From: Candidatus Nitrosotenuis chungbukensis
Lineage (GTDB): Archaea; Thermoproteota; Nitrososphaeria; Nitrososphaerales; Nitrosopumilaceae
DNA length: 64,000 nucleotides
Reading direction: 5' to 3'
NCBI RefSeq assembly: GCF_000685395.1
Contig: NZ_AVSQ01000002.1
Location: forward strand, 62,001 to 126,000
The position numbers and the translations under genes were made by a program. The notes below the pieces were generated by a model. That model searched no databases and was not told the origin of the DNA. It worked only from the letters and a program-made list of their open reading frames with translations. Below are positions 1,111 to 63,681 of the stretch, in pieces. Numbering within the stretch: the stretch's first letter is position 1; each line of letters opens with the position of its first letter.

Positions 1111-1623
1111 TTATTCTATTTCCGCCAAGATGTCGTTTTTAGCAACGGACATTCCGCCTTTGACTTTGATCTTTTTGACTACGCCGTCCTTGTGAGATTT
1201 GACTGAGACCTGCATCTTCATTGACTCTAAAACGCACACGACGTCGCCTTTTTTGACATTTGTGCCGTCTTCTACATTTACCGAGACAACCTTTCCAGGT
1301 ATCTGGCTTCGCAGACTTGTTTGCGCATCTCCACTGTCGGCACCGCCGGTATTTTTGTAAACAATTTCAGCAAACTTGGAATTCGTGTTTATTTTCATGG
1401 GAATTCCGTCAACTACCAGATTCATCTGGGCAGTCGTGTTTTCAAGATACTTGACTTTGTGGTATTTCTGATCCAAGATGAATTCGATTCCTCGGGAATT
1501 CATGCTGAGAACTTTGAGCTGGTGCTCTTGGGAATCTATCTTAATTACGTACTCGTTGTTCCCCAAATTTTTGAGGATTTGGCCCTGAAACGTTCCTGTG
1601 ACATCTTCTATTTTGTATTCCAT
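1111..1623 (-). CDS. biotin carboxyl carrier protein of acetyl/propionyl-CoA carboxylase
   Basis: 170 residues. The C-terminal domain (about 103-169) is a biotinyl/lipoyl domain with the motif ESMKM, so the biotinylated lysine is Lys136; the more usual sequence is AMKM. An acidic/Gly linker near residues 93-100 joins it to a beta-rich N-terminal part. The carrier moves carboxybiotin between the biotin carboxylase and carboxyltransferase encoded just upstream (4-base gap to the carboxylase stop). In 3HP/4HB archaea one enzyme carboxylates both acetyl-CoA and propionyl-CoA and fixes bicarbonate. It is the last gene of the three-gene operon. Confidence 0.9.
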   Translation of the reverse strand: MEYKIEDVTGTFQGQILKNLGNNEYVIKIDSQEHQLKVLSMNSRGIEFILDQKYHKVKYLENTTAQMNLVVDGIPMKINTNSKFAEIVYKNTGGADSGDAQTSLRSQIPGKVVSVNVEDGTNVKKGDVVCVLESMKMQVSVKSHKDGVVKKIKVKGGMSVAKNDILAEIE

Positions 1624-1627
1624 GTCA

Positions 1628-3115
1628 TCAATCCAGTTTATTTTTCCATGACGAGCTTCCAGTTGGCGAACTCTTTACCCTGCTTTTGAGATATTCAGAA
1701 TGCATTATGGCTGCAGCGAGTGCAGACTCTTTATTTTCAAGTTTTTCGTCTTTGATGTCTTGGGTCAGCTTGTCAATGATTCCGTATCTTTTCAGAAAGT
1801 CTGTTGAAAGATTGCCTTTTTTGTACTCGTCTGTCTTGAGAATTGTCTTGTAAAGTGGAATCGATGTCTCCACGCCCTGAATGTAGAAATCATTTAGCGC
1901 GTTGAGCATTCGAGTTCTTGACTCTTCAAAGTTCTGCCCCCACGCGCAAAGCTTTGCCATGAGCGAGTCGTAGTATGGCGAAACGGTGCATCCAGAATAC
2001 AGATAAGTGTCACAGCGAACCCCAGGACCTGACGGAATTGTGACATCGGGCACGGGGCCAGTAGACGGGGCAAAGTCCAAAAACGTGTCTTCGGCGTTTA
2101 TTCTGCACTCAATTGCATAGCCGTTCATTTTGAGATCTTTTTGCTGGAACGGAATCGGCTCCCCGTTTGCAATATCAATTTGCAGTTTTACAAGATCCAG
2201 CCCAGAAACAAGTTCTGTGATCGGGTGCTCCACCTGCAACCTGGCATTAATTTCAATAAAGTAAAATTCTCCGTTGTCAGCCCTCAGAAATTCCGCCGTT
2301 CCAAGATTCGTGTAATCGACTGCCTCAGCTGCCTTGACTGCCAGCTCCCCGATGCTATCCCTCGTTTTCTGATCAACTACCGGCGACGGCGTTTGCTCGA
2401 TGAGCTTTTGGTTGCGCCTCTGAATGGAGCACTCCCTTTCAAATATGTGGACTGCGTGACCGTGCTTGTCTCGGGCCAACTGGTATTCAATGTGGCGGAT
2501 TTTTTCAAGGAACTTTTCAACAAGAATTGCCGATTTTCCAAATGCCGCTATCGACTCGCCAGTTACTGTTTCAAACGCCTCGCGCAATTCCTTGTCAGTG
2601 TTTACGAGTCGGATTCCCCTTCCCCCTCCGCCATAAACTGACTTTAGCAGAACTGGGTATCCGATTTTGTTTGCAATGTTTAGTGCCTCCTCGACGTCTT
2701 TTACCAGGTCCGGGCTTCCAGGGATGGTTGGGATCTTTGCTTTTAGCATTGCAGACTTGCATCTCATCTTGTCGCCGCAAAGGTCCATGGACGCAGATGA
2801 CGGGCCGATAAAGTTGATCTTGTTATCCTCACAAAGTTTTGCAAAGTCAGAGTTCTCAGAAAGAAATCCGTATCCCGGATGGACAGCATCTGCACCAGAT
2901 GCAAGAATCGCTTCCATGATTTTTTCCTGGTTCAGGTAGCTTTCCTTTGGAGCTGCCTTGCCGATATGATACGATTCGTTTGCCTGCTTTACGTGCAACG
3001 AGTTGTAGTCCTCATCAGAATAGACCGCGACTGTTTTGATGCCAAGTGCCTTGCACGTCTTGATCACCCGTAGGGCTATTTCCCCCCTGTTTGCGATAAG
3101 GACTTTTTTTATCAT
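1628..3115 (-). CDS. accC: biotin carboxylase subunit of acetyl/propionyl-CoA carboxylase
   Basis: ATP-grasp biotin carboxylase of about 495 residues. It starts with IKKVLIANRGEIALR, has the glycine-rich ATP loop GGGGRGIR and the catalytic region EINARLQVEHPITE. It uses ATP and bicarbonate to carboxylate biotin on the carrier encoded next. ATG at 3115 gives the usual N-terminus MIKKVL. A GTG at 3124 in the same frame would overlap the upstream stop as GTGA and is possible. The C-terminal tail after about residue 450 is basic and low in complexity. This subunit links bicarbonate to the 3HP/4HB cycle. Confidence 0.93.
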   Translation of the reverse strand: MIKKVLIANRGEIALRVIKTCKALGIKTVAVYSDEDYNSLHVKQANESYHIGKAAPKESYLNQEKIMEAILASGADAVHPGYGFLSENSDFAKLCEDNKINFIGPSSASMDLCGDKMRCKSAMLKAKIPTIPGSPDLVKDVEEALNIANKIGYPVLLKSVYGGGGRGIRLVNTDKELREAFETVTGESIAAFGKSAILVEKFLEKIRHIEYQLARDKHGHAVHIFERECSIQRRNQKLIEQTPSPVVDQKTRDSIGELAVKAAEAVDYTNLGTAEFLRADNGEFYFIEINARLQVEHPITELVSGLDLVKLQIDIANGEPIPFQQKDLKMNGYAIECRINAEDTFLDFAPSTGPVPDVTIPSGPGVRCDTYLYSGCTVSPYYDSLMAKLCAWGQNFEESRTRMLNALNDFYIQGVETSIPLYKTILKTDEYKKGNLSTDFLKRYGIIDKLTQDIKDEKLENKESALAAAIMHSEYLKSRVKSSPTGSSSWKNKLD

Positions 3116-3120
3116 ATTAA

Positions 3121-4668
3121 TCACAAGTTGATGTTTCCGTGTTTTCGCGGAAGCTGTCTGTCTCGTTTGTTTACAAGCATTTCAAGCGCTTTGATCAGCA
3201 TTGGTCTTGTTTGGGCAGGATCGATGACTGCATCGACTGAGCCGGTGGATGCCGCAACGTAGGGGTTTGCAAATTTCTCATTAAACTCAGCCGTCAGCTG
3301 CTTTTTGAGCTCGTCTGGGTTTTTTGCCTTGTCAAGATCCTTTTTGTTCATGATCTTAACTGCGGCCTCCGAGCCAAGCACTGCTATCTGTGCAGTAGGC
3401 CACGCATAGTTGACATCGGTTCGAAGGTTTTTGCTGCCCATCGCAATGTAAGCGCCGCCGTATGCCTTTCCAATTACCAGAGTTATTTTTGGAACGGTTG
3501 CCTCGCAGTACGAGTAGAGGAGTTTGCTGCCGTGTCGAATTATTCCGTTGTGCTCCTGGTTTGTTCCCGGCATGTATCCTGGAGTATCAACTAGTGTGAT
3601 TATTGGGATTCCATAGCAGTCGCAGAACCTGATGAATCGTGATGCCTTGTTTGAAGAGTCGATGTCTAGCGCGCCTGCAAGAAAAAGCGGCTGGTTTGCG
3701 ACAATTCCAACTGTTCTTCCGTTCATTCTTGCAAATCCGACAACTACGTTAGGTGCAAAAAGCTCGTGGATTTCAAAGAAGGTATGATTGTCAACAATAG
3801 AGTGGATGATTTCTTTCATGTCGTATGGCTGAAGAGAGTTGTCAGGTATTTTGTTTATCAGATTGTGATCCATCCTGTTTGGATCGTCATCATTTGCAAC
3901 TATCGGGGGCTCTTCTGCATTGTTTGACGGGATGTATGAGAGCAGGGTTTTGATTTTATCCATGCAGTCGTACTCGTTTTTTGCAACAAAGTGAGCGACT
4001 CCGCTTTTTGTTCCGTGCGTCATCGCACCGCCGAGATCCTCAAACGACACTTCCTCCCCAAGGACTGTCTTGACAACTTCGGGCCCGGTGACATACATCG
4101 TTCCGGCCTTTTCCACCATGATGACAAAGTCAGTCATTGCAGGAGAGTACACGGCTCCGCCTGCAGACGGCCCGATGCTTGCAGTGATTTGCGGAACCAC
4201 GCCAGACGCAATCTCGTTGTGGTAAAATATGTCTGCAAATCCGTCCAGACTCAGAATTCCCTCCTGAATTCTCGCGCCGCCAGAGTCGGCGATTCCAATT
4301 ATCGGGCAGCCGGTTCGGGTTGCATGGTCCATGACCTTTGTTATTTTTTTGGCGCCCATCTGACTTAGCGTGCCACCAAGAACAGTAAAATCATAAGCAA
4401 ACACAAAGACCTGTCGTCCGGAAATTGTGCCATATCCGGTAATTACGCCGTCAGTGAAGAATTTCTTTTTCTGCATATCGTATTCATAATAATGATGAGT
4501 CACAAGGGAGTCAAGCTCGGTAAAGCTGCCCTCATCCAGGAGCAGGTTGATTCGTTCCCGTGCGGTGAGTTTTCCCTTTTCGTGTTGGGCCAGTATCTTG
4601 TCCTGTCCGCCACTTGCAAGCGCTGTGTTTTGTTTTTCTAAAAATTTTTCAATCTTATCAGAATGCAT
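3121..4668 (-). CDS. pccB: acetyl/propionyl-CoA carboxylase carboxyltransferase subunit
   Basis: About 515 residues of the crotonase-fold carboxyltransferase family (PccB/MmdA). Both acyl-CoA and carboxybiotin halves are present, with GGARIQEG, GPSAGGAVYSPA, DTPGYMPG and GKAYGGAYIAMGS. It transfers CO2 from carboxybiotin to acetyl-CoA or propionyl-CoA, giving malonyl-CoA or (S)-methylmalonyl-CoA in the 3HP/4HB cycle. ATG at 4668 is preferred to an in-frame TTG at 4692 because of the TATA-like box at 4700-4710. It is the first gene of the operon with accC and the biotin carrier. Confidence 0.93.
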   Translation of the reverse strand: MHSDKIEKFLEKQNTALASGGQDKILAQHEKGKLTARERINLLLDEGSFTELDSLVTHHYYEYDMQKKKFFTDGVITGYGTISGRQVFVFAYDFTVLGGTLSQMGAKKITKVMDHATRTGCPIIGIADSGGARIQEGILSLDGFADIFYHNEIASGVVPQITASIGPSAGGAVYSPAMTDFVIMVEKAGTMYVTGPEVVKTVLGEEVSFEDLGGAMTHGTKSGVAHFVAKNEYDCMDKIKTLLSYIPSNNAEEPPIVANDDDPNRMDHNLINKIPDNSLQPYDMKEIIHSIVDNHTFFEIHELFAPNVVVGFARMNGRTVGIVANQPLFLAGALDIDSSNKASRFIRFCDCYGIPIITLVDTPGYMPGTNQEHNGIIRHGSKLLYSYCEATVPKITLVIGKAYGGAYIAMGSKNLRTDVNYAWPTAQIAVLGSEAAVKIMNKKDLDKAKNPDELKKQLTAEFNEKFANPYVAASTGSVDAVIDPAQTRPMLIKALEMLVNKRDRQLPRKHGNINL

Positions 4669-4699
4669 GTAGCCCCGCAACAAATGGCGCAACGTAGGC

Positions 4700-57673: not shown

Positions 57674-59179
57674 TTATTTTTGTGGAATCTTGAATACCCG
57701 TTTAAAGTAGTCAGAGTTCTCTGGTGTTTCGTCTGCGTTTTCTTTGACGTTTGCAAGGCTCTTTGCTAGATTTTTCTTGTACCCAAGCTGCATTTGTCGC
57801 GCAATCTGAATTCTTTGGGCCTGGGGTGAACCTGCGCCGTGCATTGACTCAGTCAGATATCCCACTGCGTTTCGTCCAAGTGTCATGTTTTCAATTAATC
57901 GCAAAATACGTACTCTGTTCTCAACATCTATTCCCTTTCTTCCGGCAAGATACTTTTTGAGTAGCGGTCCTGCCACAGGATGCCTAAAGTCCTGCTCAGA
58001 AGGCATTGTGACAACAAGCCCGCCAGCTATATCCTGTGCAAGTCTAGAGATTTCGTATGGGAATCTAGTGACGTTGTGCTTGCATACGTTTGCAAGCATG
58101 TCATCGTTTAGCCACACGCCTGATTTCATTTCTTGCGCTTGATATGAAGAGGCAATTCCTGCAGCGTAGATGGATTCGTTTAGATGAGTCATCTCGACAA
58201 GCTTGTCTCTAATATGGGAAACATCTGGGATGCCATTATAATCAGAAATTGCAGCTGATGCACCAATTAATACATCGCCAAGTCCAGTCTTGCAAACGTA
58301 GCTTCTCCTGTGATAGCAGGTGAATCGCTCAACTAGCATTGCCGCGAATTCGTACTCGCCGTCCATGAAAATTTTATCATTTGGAATGAAAACGTCATCA
58401 AGGATCATCAAAGCCTCCTGTCCTGCAAATTTCGAGTTTCCTGCATCGATGTCTCCTTCTTCCATGCTTCTTGTGTCACATGACTGGCGGCCATAGATGT
58501 AGGTGATTCCCGGAGCGTCTGCCGGAATTGCTCCAACTATGGCATAGTCCTTGTCTTTTTCTGTCAGTCTCATGGTAGGCATTACGATTATCCAATGTGA
58601 ATTGATGCAGCCAGTCTGGTGCGCCTTTGCGCCCTTGACATATACGCCATCTTTGGTTCTTTTTGTTATTCTAAGAAACAGATCAGGATCTGCCTGCTCG
58701 TGCGGAGCCTTGCCTCTATCTCCTTTGACATCAGTCATTGCTCCACCTATGACAAAGTTTTCTTCCTGCATCTGTTTGATAAATTCTAGTAACTTTTTGT
58801 GATAACTGGTATGGTGTTTTTCATCTATTTCAAACGTGGTTGAGTGAAGTGAATTCAGCGCATCCATTCCCACACACCTCTGGAAGCAGGTTCCTGTAAG
58901 CTGGCCTAGTTTTCTTTGCATCTTGTTTTGCAAAACCAAGTCCTGTGCAGATTCTGCAATATGTAAAAATCGATTCACGTGCTTTCCTGAAATCTTTGAC
59001 ATTGGAGATGCCAGTTGTTCCTCCCTTGCTGCCAGGTCGTATGTTTCGGCAACCGCGTTAATTGAAGGACGAATCATTGGATGATCCACCGGATCCTTTA
59101 CTAGTTCTCCAAAAAGATAGACTGTAAGTTTTCTGCCCCTTAAGCTTTGGATATACTCCTGCCCAGTTCTTATTGGCAT
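57674..59179 (-). CDS. 4-hydroxybutyryl-CoA dehydratase
   Basis: About 501 residues of the HpaB/4-hydroxybutyryl-CoA dehydratase family. Counting from the GTG at 59185, Cys100 and Cys104 (GTCFQRC), His292 and Cys298 (YHRRSYVC) match the Clostridium ligands of the [4Fe-4S] cluster (Cys99, Cys103, His292, Cys299). The radical-type enzyme makes crotonyl-CoA from 4-hydroxybutyryl-CoA and is a hallmark of the 3HP/4HB cycle. A TATA box 21-31 bases before the ATG at 59179 suggests a leaderless message; GTG at 59185 is also possible. Confidence 0.92.
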   Translation of the reverse strand: MPIRTGQEYIQSLRGRKLTVYLFGELVKDPVDHPMIRPSINAVAETYDLAAREEQLASPMSKISGKHVNRFLHIAESAQDLVLQNKMQRKLGQLTGTCFQRCVGMDALNSLHSTTFEIDEKHHTSYHKKLLEFIKQMQEENFVIGGAMTDVKGDRGKAPHEQADPDLFLRITKRTKDGVYVKGAKAHQTGCINSHWIIVMPTMRLTEKDKDYAIVGAIPADAPGITYIYGRQSCDTRSMEEGDIDAGNSKFAGQEALMILDDVFIPNDKIFMDGEYEFAAMLVERFTCYHRRSYVCKTGLGDVLIGASAAISDYNGIPDVSHIRDKLVEMTHLNESIYAAGIASSYQAQEMKSGVWLNDDMLANVCKHNVTRFPYEISRLAQDIAGGLVVTMPSEQDFRHPVAGPLLKKYLAGRKGIDVENRVRILRLIENMTLGRNAVGYLTESMHGAGSPQAQRIQIARQMQLGYKKNLAKSLANVKENADETPENSDYFKRVFKIPQK

Positions 59180-59199
59180 ATTCACCCTTGCTCGAACTG

Positions 59200-59258: not shown

Positions 59259-59825
59259 TTAGGATAAACTAATTTTGGATTTGTACCTAAAGCAGTTTGT
59301 GGTGTGATCATTTGTGATTCCAACTGCCTGCATAAACGCATAACAAATTGTCGAACCAACAAAGTTGAATCCTCTTTTCTTGAGGTCCTTGCTGATTTTA
59401 TCAGACAAGACTGTGGATGGAGGAATGTTATGTAATTTTTTGTAGTTGTTTTTAATTGGCTTGTTGTTGACAAAACCCCAAATGTACGCATCAAAGGAAC
59501 CGAATTCCTTTTGGATTGCAATAAATTGTTTTGCGTTGTTTATAGCAGACTGAATTTTCAGCCTGTTTCTGATGATTCCTTCATCATGGAGCAATCTGCT
59601 TACATCCTTTTGTGTGTATTTTGAAACCTTGAGCGGGTTAAAATTGGAAAATGCCTTGCGATACGTTTGTCTTCTTTTTAGTACGGTAGACCATGACAGT
59701 CCTGCCTGGGCCCCCTCAAGTATTAGCATCTCAAAGAGTCTTTGATCATCGTGCACTGGAATGCCCCATTCGTTGTCATGGTACTGAATCATCAGATCGT
59801 CCTTAGCCCACTCGCATCGTTCCAT
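59259..59825 (-). CDS. tag: DNA-3-methyladenine glycosylase I
   Basis: 188 residues from the ATG at 59825 (MERCEWAKDD). The Tag zinc ligands are seen: Cys4, His16 (IQYHDNEWG), and a late His and Cys in NDHTTNC. The substrate region GLSWSTVLKRR follows. It removes 3-methyladenine from alkylated DNA. It ends 33 bases from the divergent 3' end of the dehydratase promoter region and has no repair partners nearby. ATG 59843 would add a few non-family residues. Confidence 0.9.
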   Translation of the reverse strand: MERCEWAKDDLMIQYHDNEWGIPVHDDQRLFEMLILEGAQAGLSWSTVLKRRQTYRKAFSNFNPLKVSKYTQKDVSRLLHDEGIIRNRLKIQSAINNAKQFIAIQKEFGSFDAYIWGFVNNKPIKNNYKKLHNIPPSTVLSDKISKDLKKRGFNFVGSTICYAFMQAVGITNDHTTNCFRYKSKISLS

Positions 59826-59870
59826 GTTACGAAAACTAACCAAATTAGTAATTTATAGAAACGCCTGTTA

Positions 59871-60173
59871 TCAGGTAAATTTTTCCGAACGGATCACTTT
59901 GGCATCTCCGACATACAGAATTATTGCAAAATCAGAGAACATGGTTCTCATTATCTCTTCTACGATACTTTCAAGCTTATCGTTGCTCAAGAGTACTTCG
60001 ATTTTTACATTCTTGTCAGTTATTCCTTTGCCATGCAGGTTTTTTGATCCGCTGCCTTCTACTTCATAAAAAGTATATCCAGAAACTTGGTGCTTGTCAA
60101 GAATATCAAAGATGTTTCTTTGTGCAAGAACCTCACATGTTATTGTAAGTAGTTTGATTTCGTATAACTTCAT
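59871..60173 (-). CDS. sbtB: PII-like regulatory protein (SbtB type)
   Basis: 100 residues of the PII-like ferredoxin fold. The core is KLLTITCEVLAQ, GYTFYEVEGSGSKN and the T-loop region, then VKIEVLLSNDKLESIVEEIMRTMF and YVGDAKVI. The G-x-G-S pattern resembles SbtB. The C-terminal CGPxGC redox loop of many cyanobacterial SbtB is absent. SbtB binds adenine nucleotides, including cAMP and ADP, and closes SbtA. It follows the bicarbonate transporter by 39 bases on the same strand. The ATG at 60173 is used. Confidence 0.83.
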   Translation of the reverse strand: MKLYEIKLLTITCEVLAQRNIFDILDKHQVSGYTFYEVEGSGSKNLHGKGITDKNVKIEVLLSNDKLESIVEEIMRTMFSDFAIILYVGDAKVIRSEKFT

Positions 60174-60212
60174 ACATATCTCCAAGAATTTGCGTGAATA
60201 AGCTTATCGATT

Positions 60213-61277
60213 CTACAAATTATGCAGGTATGAAGAGAGGGTAAGCATGATAGGCAACATTACAATTATGTTGTATGGGAATGTTATGCCAAGTGCAGAC
60301 GTAATGTACAAGCTTGGCTTTGCCTGAGGGATAGCTGTTCTAAGAACTGCAGGAGCTGCAATAAACGAGGCACTGGCAAGCAGCAATCCGAACATAACAG
60401 AACCACCTACGCTTAATCCAAGAAAAGTAGACACGGCAACGCCAATGACTCCGTTTATTGTTGGAATAATAATTGAGAATCCCACCAGAAACGGGCCAAC
60501 GTTTCTGATATCATCTAGTCTTTTTCCAGCGATTATTCCCATCTCTATTAGAAATATCACTATGGCCCCGGCAAAAAGATCCTCAAAGACTAGTTTTATT
60601 GGTTGAAATCCCTCCTTCCCAATGGCGTAACCAATCATTATGCTACCAAGTAAAATCACAATTGCTTTTCCGGTGATAGATTCGCGTAAAACATGATAGA
60701 ATGATCTGTTTTGTTTTATGCTAGCTTCAAGCTCGGCATACGCGGTAGGATCATTTTGATCGTCTTTGGAGTATTTTTGTAATGTTTGCTTTTTCTTTTG
60801 CACCATCTTTGATACTGCCATATTGGTAAGAAATATTGCCAAAACAAAGCTTACCGGCTCCAATACTGCCAATATGGCAGCAAGAAATCCTTCTGATGTC
60901 ACTCCCTGATTTTTTAAAAACGATAGTCCTACTGAGAAGGTTACCGCCCCTACTGCCCCATATGTGGACGCCAGTGCATAAGAGTCAAAAATGTTGAATT
61001 TGCCAAGCTTACGCAATATTTGATAGTGATTCAGAGTCATGATTAGAGACAGGGCTATTGCCACAAACATTGGGATGAGCATGCTTTCAAATCCAGTTGT
61101 TCTCATCTCTATTCCGCCGTGAAGCCCTATGGCAGCTAGCAGGTATATTGGCAGAAATTCAGATATTGCTTCTGGAATTTTTAGATCAGACTTGATTCTT
61201 GCAGCCACAATTCCAAGAATAAAGAACAGTACGACTGGCGTTAGAAGATTAGATTGGATTAGCTCAATTATACCCAT
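60213..61277 (-). CDS. sbtA: SbtA-type sodium-dependent bicarbonate transporter
   Basis: 354 residues with about ten membrane helices in two halves. Family landmarks: LLAAIGLHGGIEM, ASTYGAVGAVTF, LAVLEPVSF, IEMGIIAGKRL, ASASFIAAPAVLRTAIPQAKPSLY and GITFPYN. These match the DUF897/SbtA family. It imports bicarbonate with sodium in cyanobacteria. A hydrophilic loop of about 45 residues (DDQNDPTAYAELEAS) joins the halves. With the PII-like gene downstream it forms an sbtAB pair. The substrate is inferred from family and context. Confidence 0.88.
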   Translation of the reverse strand: MGIIELIQSNLLTPVVLFFILGIVAARIKSDLKIPEAISEFLPIYLLAAIGLHGGIEMRTTGFESMLIPMFVAIALSLIMTLNHYQILRKLGKFNIFDSYALASTYGAVGAVTFSVGLSFLKNQGVTSEGFLAAILAVLEPVSFVLAIFLTNMAVSKMVQKKKQTLQKYSKDDQNDPTAYAELEASIKQNRSFYHVLRESITGKAIVILLGSIMIGYAIGKEGFQPIKLVFEDLFAGAIVIFLIEMGIIAGKRLDDIRNVGPFLVGFSIIIPTINGVIGVAVSTFLGLSVGGSVMFGLLLASASFIAAPAVLRTAIPQAKPSLYITSALGITFPYNIIVMLPIMLTLSSYLHNL

Positions 61278-61413
61278 TTTTGATCAGCCCAAAATTAACA
61301 ACGAATAACTAATGCAGTAATTGCAGACATCGCATTTGTAATAGACAGATTATTTTTTGTTTGCATAGGTACAATGTTTTTGAGTTTTCGTTATTGATAT
61401 AAAGATAAGCGTT

Positions 61414-62076
61414 TCAATTTTTTGCAAGTTTCTTGTACAATACACCAACGATTCCGGCACTCACGAATGGGGCGGTCCAATACAGCCACAAATCGCCCAA
61501 CGACCAAGAAAGCAAGGCCGGAGCTAAGGAACGTGCAGGATTCATCGATGCACCAGAGATAAAAGACAAAAAGAAAATGTCAAGGCCAACCATGCCCCCA
61601 ATCGCAAGACCTGATACACCATACAATCCCTTCGTGTGAATCACAATCAAGATGACTGACAGTAGAAGAGCGGTAGCAAAAATCTCAACGCCAAAAATTA
61701 CTGGCAGTGCATAGGAGTAGTTAGGAGTATTTGCGCCAAGATTTGCGTCTGTGCCAATCAAAAATTTTACAAACAAGCTTGCCAAGAACGCTCCAATGAT
61801 TTCAGCTGAAAGATAAATGAATAGTTGATTTTTAGGCATGTGTCTTGTGATTAGAAATGTGATTGTTGTTGCAGGATTAAAGTGAGCCATCGAGACTTTT
61901 CCAACTGCATATACCATCAAAGAAACCGCAACAAACGGCGCAAAAGCCTCAAACCAAAGTCCGATTTTCCCCCCATATTGCGCATTGATTACGACAGAGC
62001 CAGTTGCAAGTACAACTACTACAAAAGTTCCAGCAAGTTCGGCAAAAAATCTCTTCTGATTTGAAGAAAGTTTCAT
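61414..62076 (-). CDS. aquaporin-family channel of the arsenic operon (AqpS-like)
   Basis: 220 residues with six membrane helices and two half-helices with HFNPATT and SMNPARS. It belongs to the MIP family. In operons with ArsC such a channel (AqpS) lets arsenite leave the cell down its gradient. The ATG at 62076 overlaps the arsC stop by 4 bases (ATGA), which strongly supports co-expression. No ArsB or Acr3 pump gene is seen in this window. Confidence 0.9.
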   Translation of the reverse strand: MKLSSNQKRFFAELAGTFVVVVLATGSVVINAQYGGKIGLWFEAFAPFVAVSLMVYAVGKVSMAHFNPATTITFLITRHMPKNQLFIYLSAEIIGAFLASLFVKFLIGTDANLGANTPNYSYALPVIFGVEIFATALLLSVILIVIHTKGLYGVSGLAIGGMVGLDIFFLSFISGASMNPARSLAPALLSWSLGDLWLYWTAPFVSAGIVGVLYKKLAKN

Positions 62077-62471
62077 TCCAGTGCTTTGCAAAGATCAATC
62101 ACCTTTTTTTCGATTAAATCGCGAATTTTTCGCACCTCGTCAAGTGGCTTTCCCTTTGGATCTGGAATCCCCCAGTCCAAGACATTTTGAACAAATATCG
62201 CTGGACATGATTCTTTGTCCATGCAGCCCATGTTCACTATTCTAGCTGACTGCTTAATCATAGAATCAGAGATCACCTTTGACTGATGATTAGAAATGTC
62301 AATTCCGATTTCGCTCATTACCGCGATGGCAAGCGGGTTTACCGTGTCAACGGGCCTTGTTCCCGCACTTTGCGGCTCGTATCCAACAGGCGCGTATTTC
62401 CGGAAAAATCCTTCTGCCATCTGGCTCCTACCAGCATTTTCTACGCATACAAAGAGGACTTTTTTCTGCAT
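62073..62471 (-). CDS. arsC: arsenate reductase, low-molecular-weight phosphatase type
   Basis: 132 residues. The P-loop is FVCVENAGRSQMAEGFF (Cys9-x5-Arg15), and the thioredoxin-coupled Cys pair is in GCMDKESCP. This is the thioredoxin-linked ArsC class, which reduces arsenate to arsenite. Two thioredoxins are encoded in this window. It lies 13 bases after arsM and overlaps the channel gene by 4 bases. Confidence 0.94.
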   Translation of the reverse strand: MQKKVLFVCVENAGRSQMAEGFFRKYAPVGYEPQSAGTRPVDTVNPLAIAVMSEIGIDISNHQSKVISDSMIKQSARIVNMGCMDKESCPAIFVQNVLDWGIPDPKGKPLDEVRKIRDLIEKKVIDLCKALE

Positions 62472-62484
62472 TTTGCTCGTGAAG

Positions 62485-63237
62485 TTACTCTTTTATTGCT
62501 TTGATAACAAGGCTTGTAATTTTTCTGGCGTTATCCTCCATGTAGATCCGCTCATCTAATACGCTGATGTTTTTGAATCCTGCCTTGTTTATTGCGTCAA
62601 GATAATTTTCTTTTGTTAGTGCGCCGTCAATGCAGGCGCACCACTGCTCAGAACTAGTCTCGTGCATTTGCAATTCTTTGTTTGTAATGAGATCAGAGAT
62701 CACCATCCTGCCTCCCTTTTTCAAAATTCTGTAAATTTCCTTAAACGCCTTGGTTTTGTCTATTGTCAGATTAATCACACAGTTGCTGATTACAGTATCT
62801 ATAGAATAGTCAGGCAGTGGAATATTATCCTCCACGTCGCCTTTTTTAAATTCGACATTGGTGTATTTTCCATCCGTTGCATTTTTTCTTGCCTTTTCTA
62901 GCATTTCGTCAGTCATGTCAATGCCGATTACTCTTCCTGACTTTCCAACCGCGTTCGCTGCCAAAAACGCATCAATGCCTGCGCCGGAACCAATATCGAC
63001 TACCACTTCGCCCTCCTTGAGGTCGGCCAGTTTTATCGGCGCGCCGCACCCAACTCCAAGAATGGAAGACTTGGGAATTGATTCCAGATCTTTTGCATCA
63101 TATCCAATCAAGCCGGCAGCTTCGATCGGTGAGGCGTCTGTGCCGCACTCGCCAGGCATGCAGCAGCAACTGGAATTTCCGGATAGCGCTATCTTGCCAT
63201 ATCTTTGCTTTATTTCCTTTTTAATTTCTACAGTCAT
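62485..63237 (-). CDS. arsM: arsenite S-adenosylmethionine methyltransferase
   Basis: 250 residues from the ATG at 63237. The SAM site is VVVDIGSGAGIDAF. The three arsenite-binding Cys fit: Cys64 (VGCGAP), Cys153 (SNCVINL) and Cys202 (CACIDGAL). An extra Cys cluster lies near residues 24-31 (SSCCCMPGEC). It methylates arsenite to volatile or less bound forms. It is the first gene of arsM-arsC-aquaporin and has a 9-3-9 palindrome just upstream. Confidence 0.93.
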   Translation of the reverse strand: MTVEIKKEIKQRYGKIALSGNSSCCCMPGECGTDASPIEAAGLIGYDAKDLESIPKSSILGVGCGAPIKLADLKEGEVVVDIGSGAGIDAFLAANAVGKSGRVIGIDMTDEMLEKARKNATDGKYTNVEFKKGDVEDNIPLPDYSIDTVISNCVINLTIDKTKAFKEIYRILKKGGRMVISDLITNKELQMHETSSEQWCACIDGALTKENYLDAINKAGFKNISVLDERIYMEDNARKITSLVIKAIKE

Positions 63238-63240
63238 GCT

Positions 63241-63261
63241 ATGGTTTACTAGGTAAACCAT
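63241..63261. promoter_or_regulatory. 21-bp palindrome (9-3-9), probable ars operator
   Basis: ATGGTTTAC-TAG-GTAAACCAT has perfect 9-bp arms. It begins 3 bases upstream of the arsM start, covering the initiation region, and meets a TATA-like CTTAAAT (63260-63266, minus). It lies 39 bases before the divergent HxlR gene. A repressor bound here would block arsM and could affect its own gene. Confidence 0.7.
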
Positions 63262-63300
63262 TTAAGTTGTCAAGTACAAATTATTGCAGTTAGTGTAAAA

Positions 63301-63681
63301 TTGGAAACTAAAAGAAAACCAATACCAATCGTACAGGATGCCTGCGGTTTTGAGGGTTATGACGCCTCGTCGCTGATGAGCGAGACTGCCAAGCTTAGGA
63401 AAATCATAACAAAACGGGGCACGTTAGAGATCCTAATTCCACTTTGTTGCACTGTGGAGCCGGTAAGATACAAGCAGTTCAGGCAAGCCTTGAAAGGCAT
63501 TAGCAGCAGAACACTATCCACCAGATTAAAAGAGCTTGAGAAAAGCGGAATCTTGGAAAGACAGTCGTTTAATGAGATTCCTCCGCGAGTCGAATACAGG
63601 CTAACTAACAAGGGGCAAGAACTCGTTGAATCCATGATCAATCTTTTACAATGGATGAAGAAATGGTCAAAATCAAAGTAG
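63301..63681 (+). CDS. HxlR-family transcriptional regulator, probable arsenic repressor
   Basis: 126 residues. The HxlR winged helix is RYKQFRQALKGISSRTLSTRLKELEKSGILER and the wing PRVEYRLTNKGQEL. Cys15 and the pair Cys49-Cys50 (PLCCTVEP) could bind trivalent arsenic between subunits or helices; this is inference. The start is TTG. Its position divergent from arsM with a shared palindrome argues that it controls the ars genes in place of an ArsR protein. Confidence 0.85.
   Translation: METKRKPIPIVQDACGFEGYDASSLMSETAKLRKIITKRGTLEILIPLCCTVEPVRYKQFRQALKGISSRTLSTRLKELEKSGILERQSFNEIPPRVEYRLTNKGQELVESMINLLQWMKKWSKSK

Follow-up and report, generated by a model that had tools for sequence, protein, structure and literature searches.

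An SbtA-type transporter and its PII-like partner beside arsenic and phosphate genes in ammonia-oxidising archaea

Genes of the SbtA–SbtB locus

The window, by which we mean the whole 64,000-nucleotide stretch of Candidatus Nitrosotenuis chungbukensis DNA that was analysed, contains a gene for an SbtA-like transporter followed on the same strand by a gene for an SbtB-like protein (together SbtAB). These genes and their neighbours are:

57674–59185, minus strand: 4-hydroxybutyryl-CoA dehydratase (4HBD) homologue, HpaB family (Pfam HpaB_N/HpaB)
59259–59843, minus strand: 3-methyladenine glycosylase Tag, between SbtB and 4HBD (Adenine_glyco, 278.6 bits)
59871–60173, minus strand: SbtB-like PII-like protein, 100 aa from the ATG at 60173, in a frame open from the TTG at 60185 (P-II, 55.5 bits)
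60213–61277, minus strand: SbtA-like Sbt_1/DUF897 transporter (PF05982, 342.7 bits; AF2/Foldseek matches to SbtA)
61278–61413, minus strand: aquaporin–SbtA gap of 136 nt, which would leave room for an SbtAB promoter
61414–62091, minus strand: MIP-family aquaporin in an AqpS-like position (MIP, 128.5 bits)
62073–62471, minus strand: LMW-PTP type arsenate reductase ArsC (LMWPc, 72.6 bits; NCBIfam arsC matches below their cut-offs)
62485–63261, minus strand: ArsM-type arsenite methyltransferase (NCBIfam PRK11873, 280.7 bits, cut-off 263)
63301–63681, plus strand: HxlR-type transcriptional regulator of the cassette, divergent (HxlR, 77.7 bits)

The 354-aa transporter matched Sbt_1 far above the cut-off of 27 bits and covered positions 1–306 of the 308 in the profile, which places it in the superfamily along its whole length. 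Its closest PDB sequence was SbtA slr1512 (7cye; E 9e-36). When the AF2 model (pLDDT 92) was compared with the PDB using Foldseek, the top five matches were 7egl, 8zor, 7egk, 7cyf and 7cye, all of them SbtA (TM 0.71–0.80), followed by ASBT; the predicted fold is of the SbtA type. Profile score and fold thus bear out the SbtA-family membrane protein of 354 aa that the initial annotation had placed here. The sequence contains no cysteine.

The SbtB-like gene likely starts at the ATG at 60173. Its frame (59871–60185) had TTHA0516, 3dfe and cyanobacterial SbtB as best PDB matches. SbtB lay directly behind SbtA in 74/74 archaeal loci examined, so the pairing in the window is not due to chance; together with the P-II match, this upholds the earlier report of a 100-aa PII-like protein after the transporter. 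The SbtA stop and the SbtB-like ATG are 39 nt apart in the window, unlike most archaeal loci, where the two genes overlap by 4 nt (ATGA). In alignments, most SbtB copies of ammonia-oxidising archaea (AOA) retain the GxGx(K/R) stretch. They differ from cyanobacterial SbtB in a T-loop that is 4–5 residues shorter, and the C-terminal CGPxGC redox loop (R-loop) found in some SbtB was absent from all aligned AOA copies. At a position where a conserved Arg is found in most AOA SbtB, the window protein carries His (KNLHG versus KG(I/L)RG), and a copy in a genome of the same genus (G222) is identical to it, KNLHG included.

Placement of the transporter

The AOA pair shares superfamily, fold, gene order and a PII-like partner with the cyanobacterial SbtA1–SbtB pair (slr1512/slr1513). 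However, the window protein is 27–28% identical to cyanobacterial SbtA1, and in a 66-row tree SbtA1 and the AOA proteins formed separate clades, each at 100/100, with a branch of 3.78 leading to SbtA1. The approximately unbiased (AU) test did not reject AOA and SbtA1 as neighbours (p 0.098); a single clade of AOA and cyanobacterial DUF897 proteins was rejected (p 0.005). The eight cyanobacterial DUF897 rows probably belong to the SbtA2 subfamily (PMC9477826, PMC13249358), and to the extent that this assignment holds, membership of the window protein in SbtA2 is rejected by the same test.

Identity was higher, at 34–37%, to plasmid-borne DUF897 permeases of Arthrobacter, Anoxybacillus and Haliscomenobacter. 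An unannotated SbtA–SbtB pair with close resemblance to the Arthrobacter plasmid copies was seen on a conjugative plasmid of Pseudomonas hygromyciniae (L049:1573–2837). Our bacterial DUF897 sample comprised 92 loci among the matches listed for a consensus query with closer relatives. These transporters share with AOA about 37% identity and the motif ASAS(Y/F)IA(A/V)PA, and have a PII-like gene directly behind them in about 53/92 loci among the matches listed. On sequence comparison, the window protein belongs to one archaeal clade within the wider DUF897 branch (about 37%) and is not a canonical SbtA1. The name SbtA therefore stands as far as the Sbt_1 family and the fold are concerned, but not in the narrow sense, since both the tree and the pocket residues put the protein outside SbtA1. 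The stretch ASASFIAAPA, previously read as an SbtA landmark, is DUF897's motif; SbtA1 has SSSDISGPP.

Residues of the substrate pocket

In slr1512, Liu et al. proposed S114, Y140, S324 and S327 as bicarbonate ligands, and an Ala mutant of S114 had 10–40% of transport left (PMC8352866). We compared the pocket, in slr1512 numbering, across 152 aligned rows (59 AOA and 93 others). All 59 AOA rows have G, L, S and A at positions 114, 140, 324 and 327, respectively; S114, Y140 and S327 of the SbtA1 ligand set are replaced and only S324 is retained. The differences at 140 and 327 are found in all DUF897 rather than in AOA alone. At position 114, every AOA row (59/59) carries Gly and every other row (93/93) Ser. 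Phe occupies position 325 in all AOA rows (59/59), against Tyr in 90/90 DUF897 and Asp in SbtA1, the change from Y325 to F being confined to AOA. G111, S322, S324, I326 and P329 are kept in all AOA rows. This residue pattern indicates that the Na+/anion site is partly retained, with two positions altered in AOA only; as read from the alignment, the AOA pocket has lost two hydroxyl-bearing residues.

Association with arsenic and phosphate genes

The MIP, ArsC, ArsM and HxlR genes lie directly upstream of SbtAB in the window and were absent from the initial annotation. At the position of HxlR/ArsM in this cassette (61414–63681), other AOA have ArsR. Neighbours were counted at the 74 archaeal loci, with labels checked by Pfam. 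Within about 5 kb of SbtA, ArsC was found in 62/74, MIP in 61/74 and ArsR in 51/74, and Pit in 28/74, DUF47 in 27/74, PhoU in 14/74 and ArsM in 12/74, all approximate counts since some genomes occur twice and more than 30 loci have only about 1.5 kb of flank, making the values for distant genes lower bounds. The shared gene content is that of an ArsR–ArsC–aquaporin cassette of the AqpS type, of which SbtAB is, to our knowledge, not a known part. By hand count, uncorrected for kinship, ArsC occurred in about 117/125 SbtA-positive versus 64/125 SbtA-negative genomes.

A genome of the same genus that lacks SbtA (L174) has the order ArsR-ArsC-MIP-Tag-4HBD at the site where the window has ArsM-ArsC-MIP-SbtA-SbtB-Tag-4HBD. 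Outside this genus, the ars cassette is flanked by phosphate-uptake genes on one side and hemL-hemC on the other; Nitrosopumilus has SbtAB next to it, whereas L176, L177 and L182 lack the pair there. SbtAB accompanies the ars cassette at both of these genomic sites, lying on either side of it and facing either way (the window, L131, L136, L138). At least four gene orders occur, and the pair probably travels with an arsenate/phosphate gene island.

Such linkage might say nothing about function, whatever the substrate, if a spot that collects accessory genes happened to put SbtAB beside ars genes. We regard this as a real possibility, though we lean somewhat against it. Close relatives differ in whether SbtAB, ArsM and regulators are present at this spot (L174 versus the window), and the same turnover separates L176/L177 from the Nitrosopumilus loci, but SbtAB adjoins the cassette at both of two unrelated places in the genome and in more than one orientation.

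Where Pit or PhoU is directly upstream, SbtAB starts 35–54 nt after it in nearly all loci. In Nitrosopumilus-type loci (L152, L012, L146 and others), a conserved TTTTTATT box ends about 27 nt upstream of the SbtA ATG, which would fit a leaderless archaeal promoter. Because the box is also present where pit/phoU are not directly upstream, it suggests that SbtAB has its own promoter, and co-transcription with pit/phoU was rejected despite the tight spacing. We take locus L152 to be N. maritimus, in which case its aquaporin would be Nmar_0489. The Nmar_0489 gene is named in PMC6912568. In Ca. N. brevis, the colocalised genes with high FST between Atlantic and Pacific sites include SBT, MIP and a PII, phoU having the highest value (PMC9239043).

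A different explanation is that the archaeal clade has switched substrate to an arsenic or phosphorus oxyanion, for arsenic export or phosphate-like transport, adenylate-gated via the PII-like protein. The neighbour counts, the gene orders at two sites, the spacing after Pit or PhoU, the Ca. N. brevis genes and the two AOA-only pocket changes all fit such a switch, as does a search of ten AOA genomes, all ten of which lacked an ACR3-type permease and eight of which lacked ArsB. Nevertheless, we consider it unlikely. Many genomes keep ArsC–MIP without SbtAB, the second SbtAB paralogue described below is not ars-linked and the TTTTTATT box suggests a separate SbtAB promoter. Ars or phosphate neighbours were found in 0/92 of the bacterial DUF897 loci listed, and ars genes were thus rejected as a general DUF897 partner. 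ACR3 needs a cysteine, and an ACR3-like arsenite pump was rejected by sequence, the window protein having none. Very doubtful in our view is the specific proposal that fixed loss of the two pocket hydroxyls re-purposed an SbtA-type transporter into an adenylate-gated arsenic/phosphorus oxyanion transporter working with ArsC and the aquaporin.

Carbon-fixation genes and carbonic anhydrase

Profile matches place both the acetyl/propionyl-CoA carboxylase genes (1111–4692) and the 4HBD homologue in the window, as had been noted, and their closeness had been offered as support for a bicarbonate pump feeding the 3HP/4HB cycle. However, 4HBD is near SbtA in 5/74 archaeal loci, all five in the window's genus, and where relatives carry the ars cassette at another site, SbtAB is found at that site instead of next to 4HBD. 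Since SbtAB follows the ArsC–aquaporin cassette to two sites, the carbon-fixation neighbour is a by-product, and gene position lends no support to a CO2-concentrating step that would supply the cycle.

The relatives in bacteria have other neighbours. Among the 102 genes adjoining the bacterial DUF897–SbtB loci listed, the commonest Pfam family was beta-carbonic anhydrase (11), followed by LysR (7). Beta-carbonic anhydrase lay within 3.5 kb in 18/92 of the bacterial DUF897 loci listed by Pfam, and in 21 with three more found by a custom profile. In cyanobacteria, sphingomonads, Roseibium and Verrucomicrobiaceae, the genes for SbtA, SbtB and carbonic anhydrase adjoin one another. In six cyanobacterial loci (L084, L098, L107, L126, L128, L129), SbtA(DUF897), SbtB and beta-carbonic anhydrase form a same-strand trio. 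These neighbours provide the best evidence that DUF897 proteins handle inorganic carbon and point to bicarbonate as the most likely cargo.

AOA differ from bacterial DUF897 in this respect too: G114, F325 and the ars/phosphate neighbours are found in AOA only, and no carbonic anhydrase partner was seen beside SbtAB in AOA loci. No alpha- or beta-carbonic anhydrase scored above cut-off in ten AOA genomes. For gamma-carbonic anhydrase, the sole route was a Hexapep search, and the matches from the window's own genome that were read look like acyltransferases. A 'ca' gene is drawn in AOA in PMC12774514.

Transport of a different small monovalent anion, formate for instance, or bicarbonate export for pH/CO2 balance rather than carbon-fixation supply, would also accommodate a DUF897 protein. 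DUF897 is common in heterotrophs, and the DUF897-type SO_3758 of Shewanella oneidensis affects formate tolerance, efflux being favoured by the authors with the wild-type direction not established (PMC12093963). The pocket of SO_3758 is of the DUF897 type, like that of the AOA proteins, and retains counterparts of S322, S324 and I326, but has Ser and Tyr at the equivalents of 114 and 325. We think this explanation improbable, as the carbonic anhydrase neighbours of the bacterial relatives fit bicarbonate better.

Distribution and a second copy

SbtA was found in 125/250 and SbtB in 127/250 Nitrosopumilaceae genomes. Among 398 Thermoproteota genomes, Sbt_1 matches above the Pfam cut-off occurred in Nitrosopumilaceae only (43). 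In seven genomes (G138, G177, G154, G136, G112, G127, G156), ORFs of 412–543 aa gave weak Sbt_1 matches below the threshold, perhaps a distant transporter family. As one archaeal clade sits among bacterial sequences, a single acquisition by gene transfer is suggested; Nitrosopumilaceae probably acquired SbtAB once and then duplicated it. Half of the family lacks SbtA, which is therefore not a general part of the 3HP/4HB cycle.

The window's own genome has a second SbtA–SbtB pair, broken by an assembly gap between contigs C19 and C20. One half of SbtA closes C19 and the other opens C20, a short run of Ns adjoining the break, and SbtB is at C20:2013–2318 (the pair corresponds to L007:9130–9620 and L006:1400–2318). 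The pair is intact in a genome of the same genus (L133). Its clade (paralogue B: L133, L139, L141, L144) shows no ars linkage and has a conserved upstream gene of 179 aa without a Pfam match.

Discussion

The AOA gene is already labelled as a bicarbonate transporter or 'sbt' (PMC7265257, PMC12774514, PMC9239043), a label given by family membership alone. We found no published account of the AOA SbtA subfamily, its pocket changes or its ars linkage.

From the evidence above we infer the Na+ coupling, substrate, direction and gating of the AOA pair as follows, and moderately favour a Na+-coupled, PII-gated small-anion transporter with bicarbonate as its most likely cargo. An elevator-type Sbt_1/DUF897 transporter would be made together with the PII-like protein, which would bind its cytosolic face and close it according to adenine-nucleotide state; bicarbonate would be drawn from Na+-rich water. 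Bicarbonate is favoured by the Sbt_1 score, the SbtA fold, the retained G111, S322, S324, I326 and P329 and the constant SbtB partner. It is weakened by the pocket changes, by linkage to ArsC/MIP/ArsR/Pit/PhoU rather than carbon fixation, by the half of Nitrosopumilaceae without SbtA and by the missing carbonic anhydrase partner. Seawater, moreover, already holds about 2 mM bicarbonate. Further points in favour of bicarbonate are its uptake by SbtA2 with SbtB2, the second cyanobacterial subfamily (reviewed in PMC13249358), its consumption by the host's carbon-fixation cycle (PMC7265257) and the absence of any alpha- or beta-carbonic anhydrase above cut-off in the ten AOA genomes.

The linkage to arsenate/phosphate genes is unexplained by a carbon-uptake story. 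Nitrosopumilaceae are among the most abundant autotrophs of the ocean, and the two named pocket residues lend themselves to a point-mutation assay.
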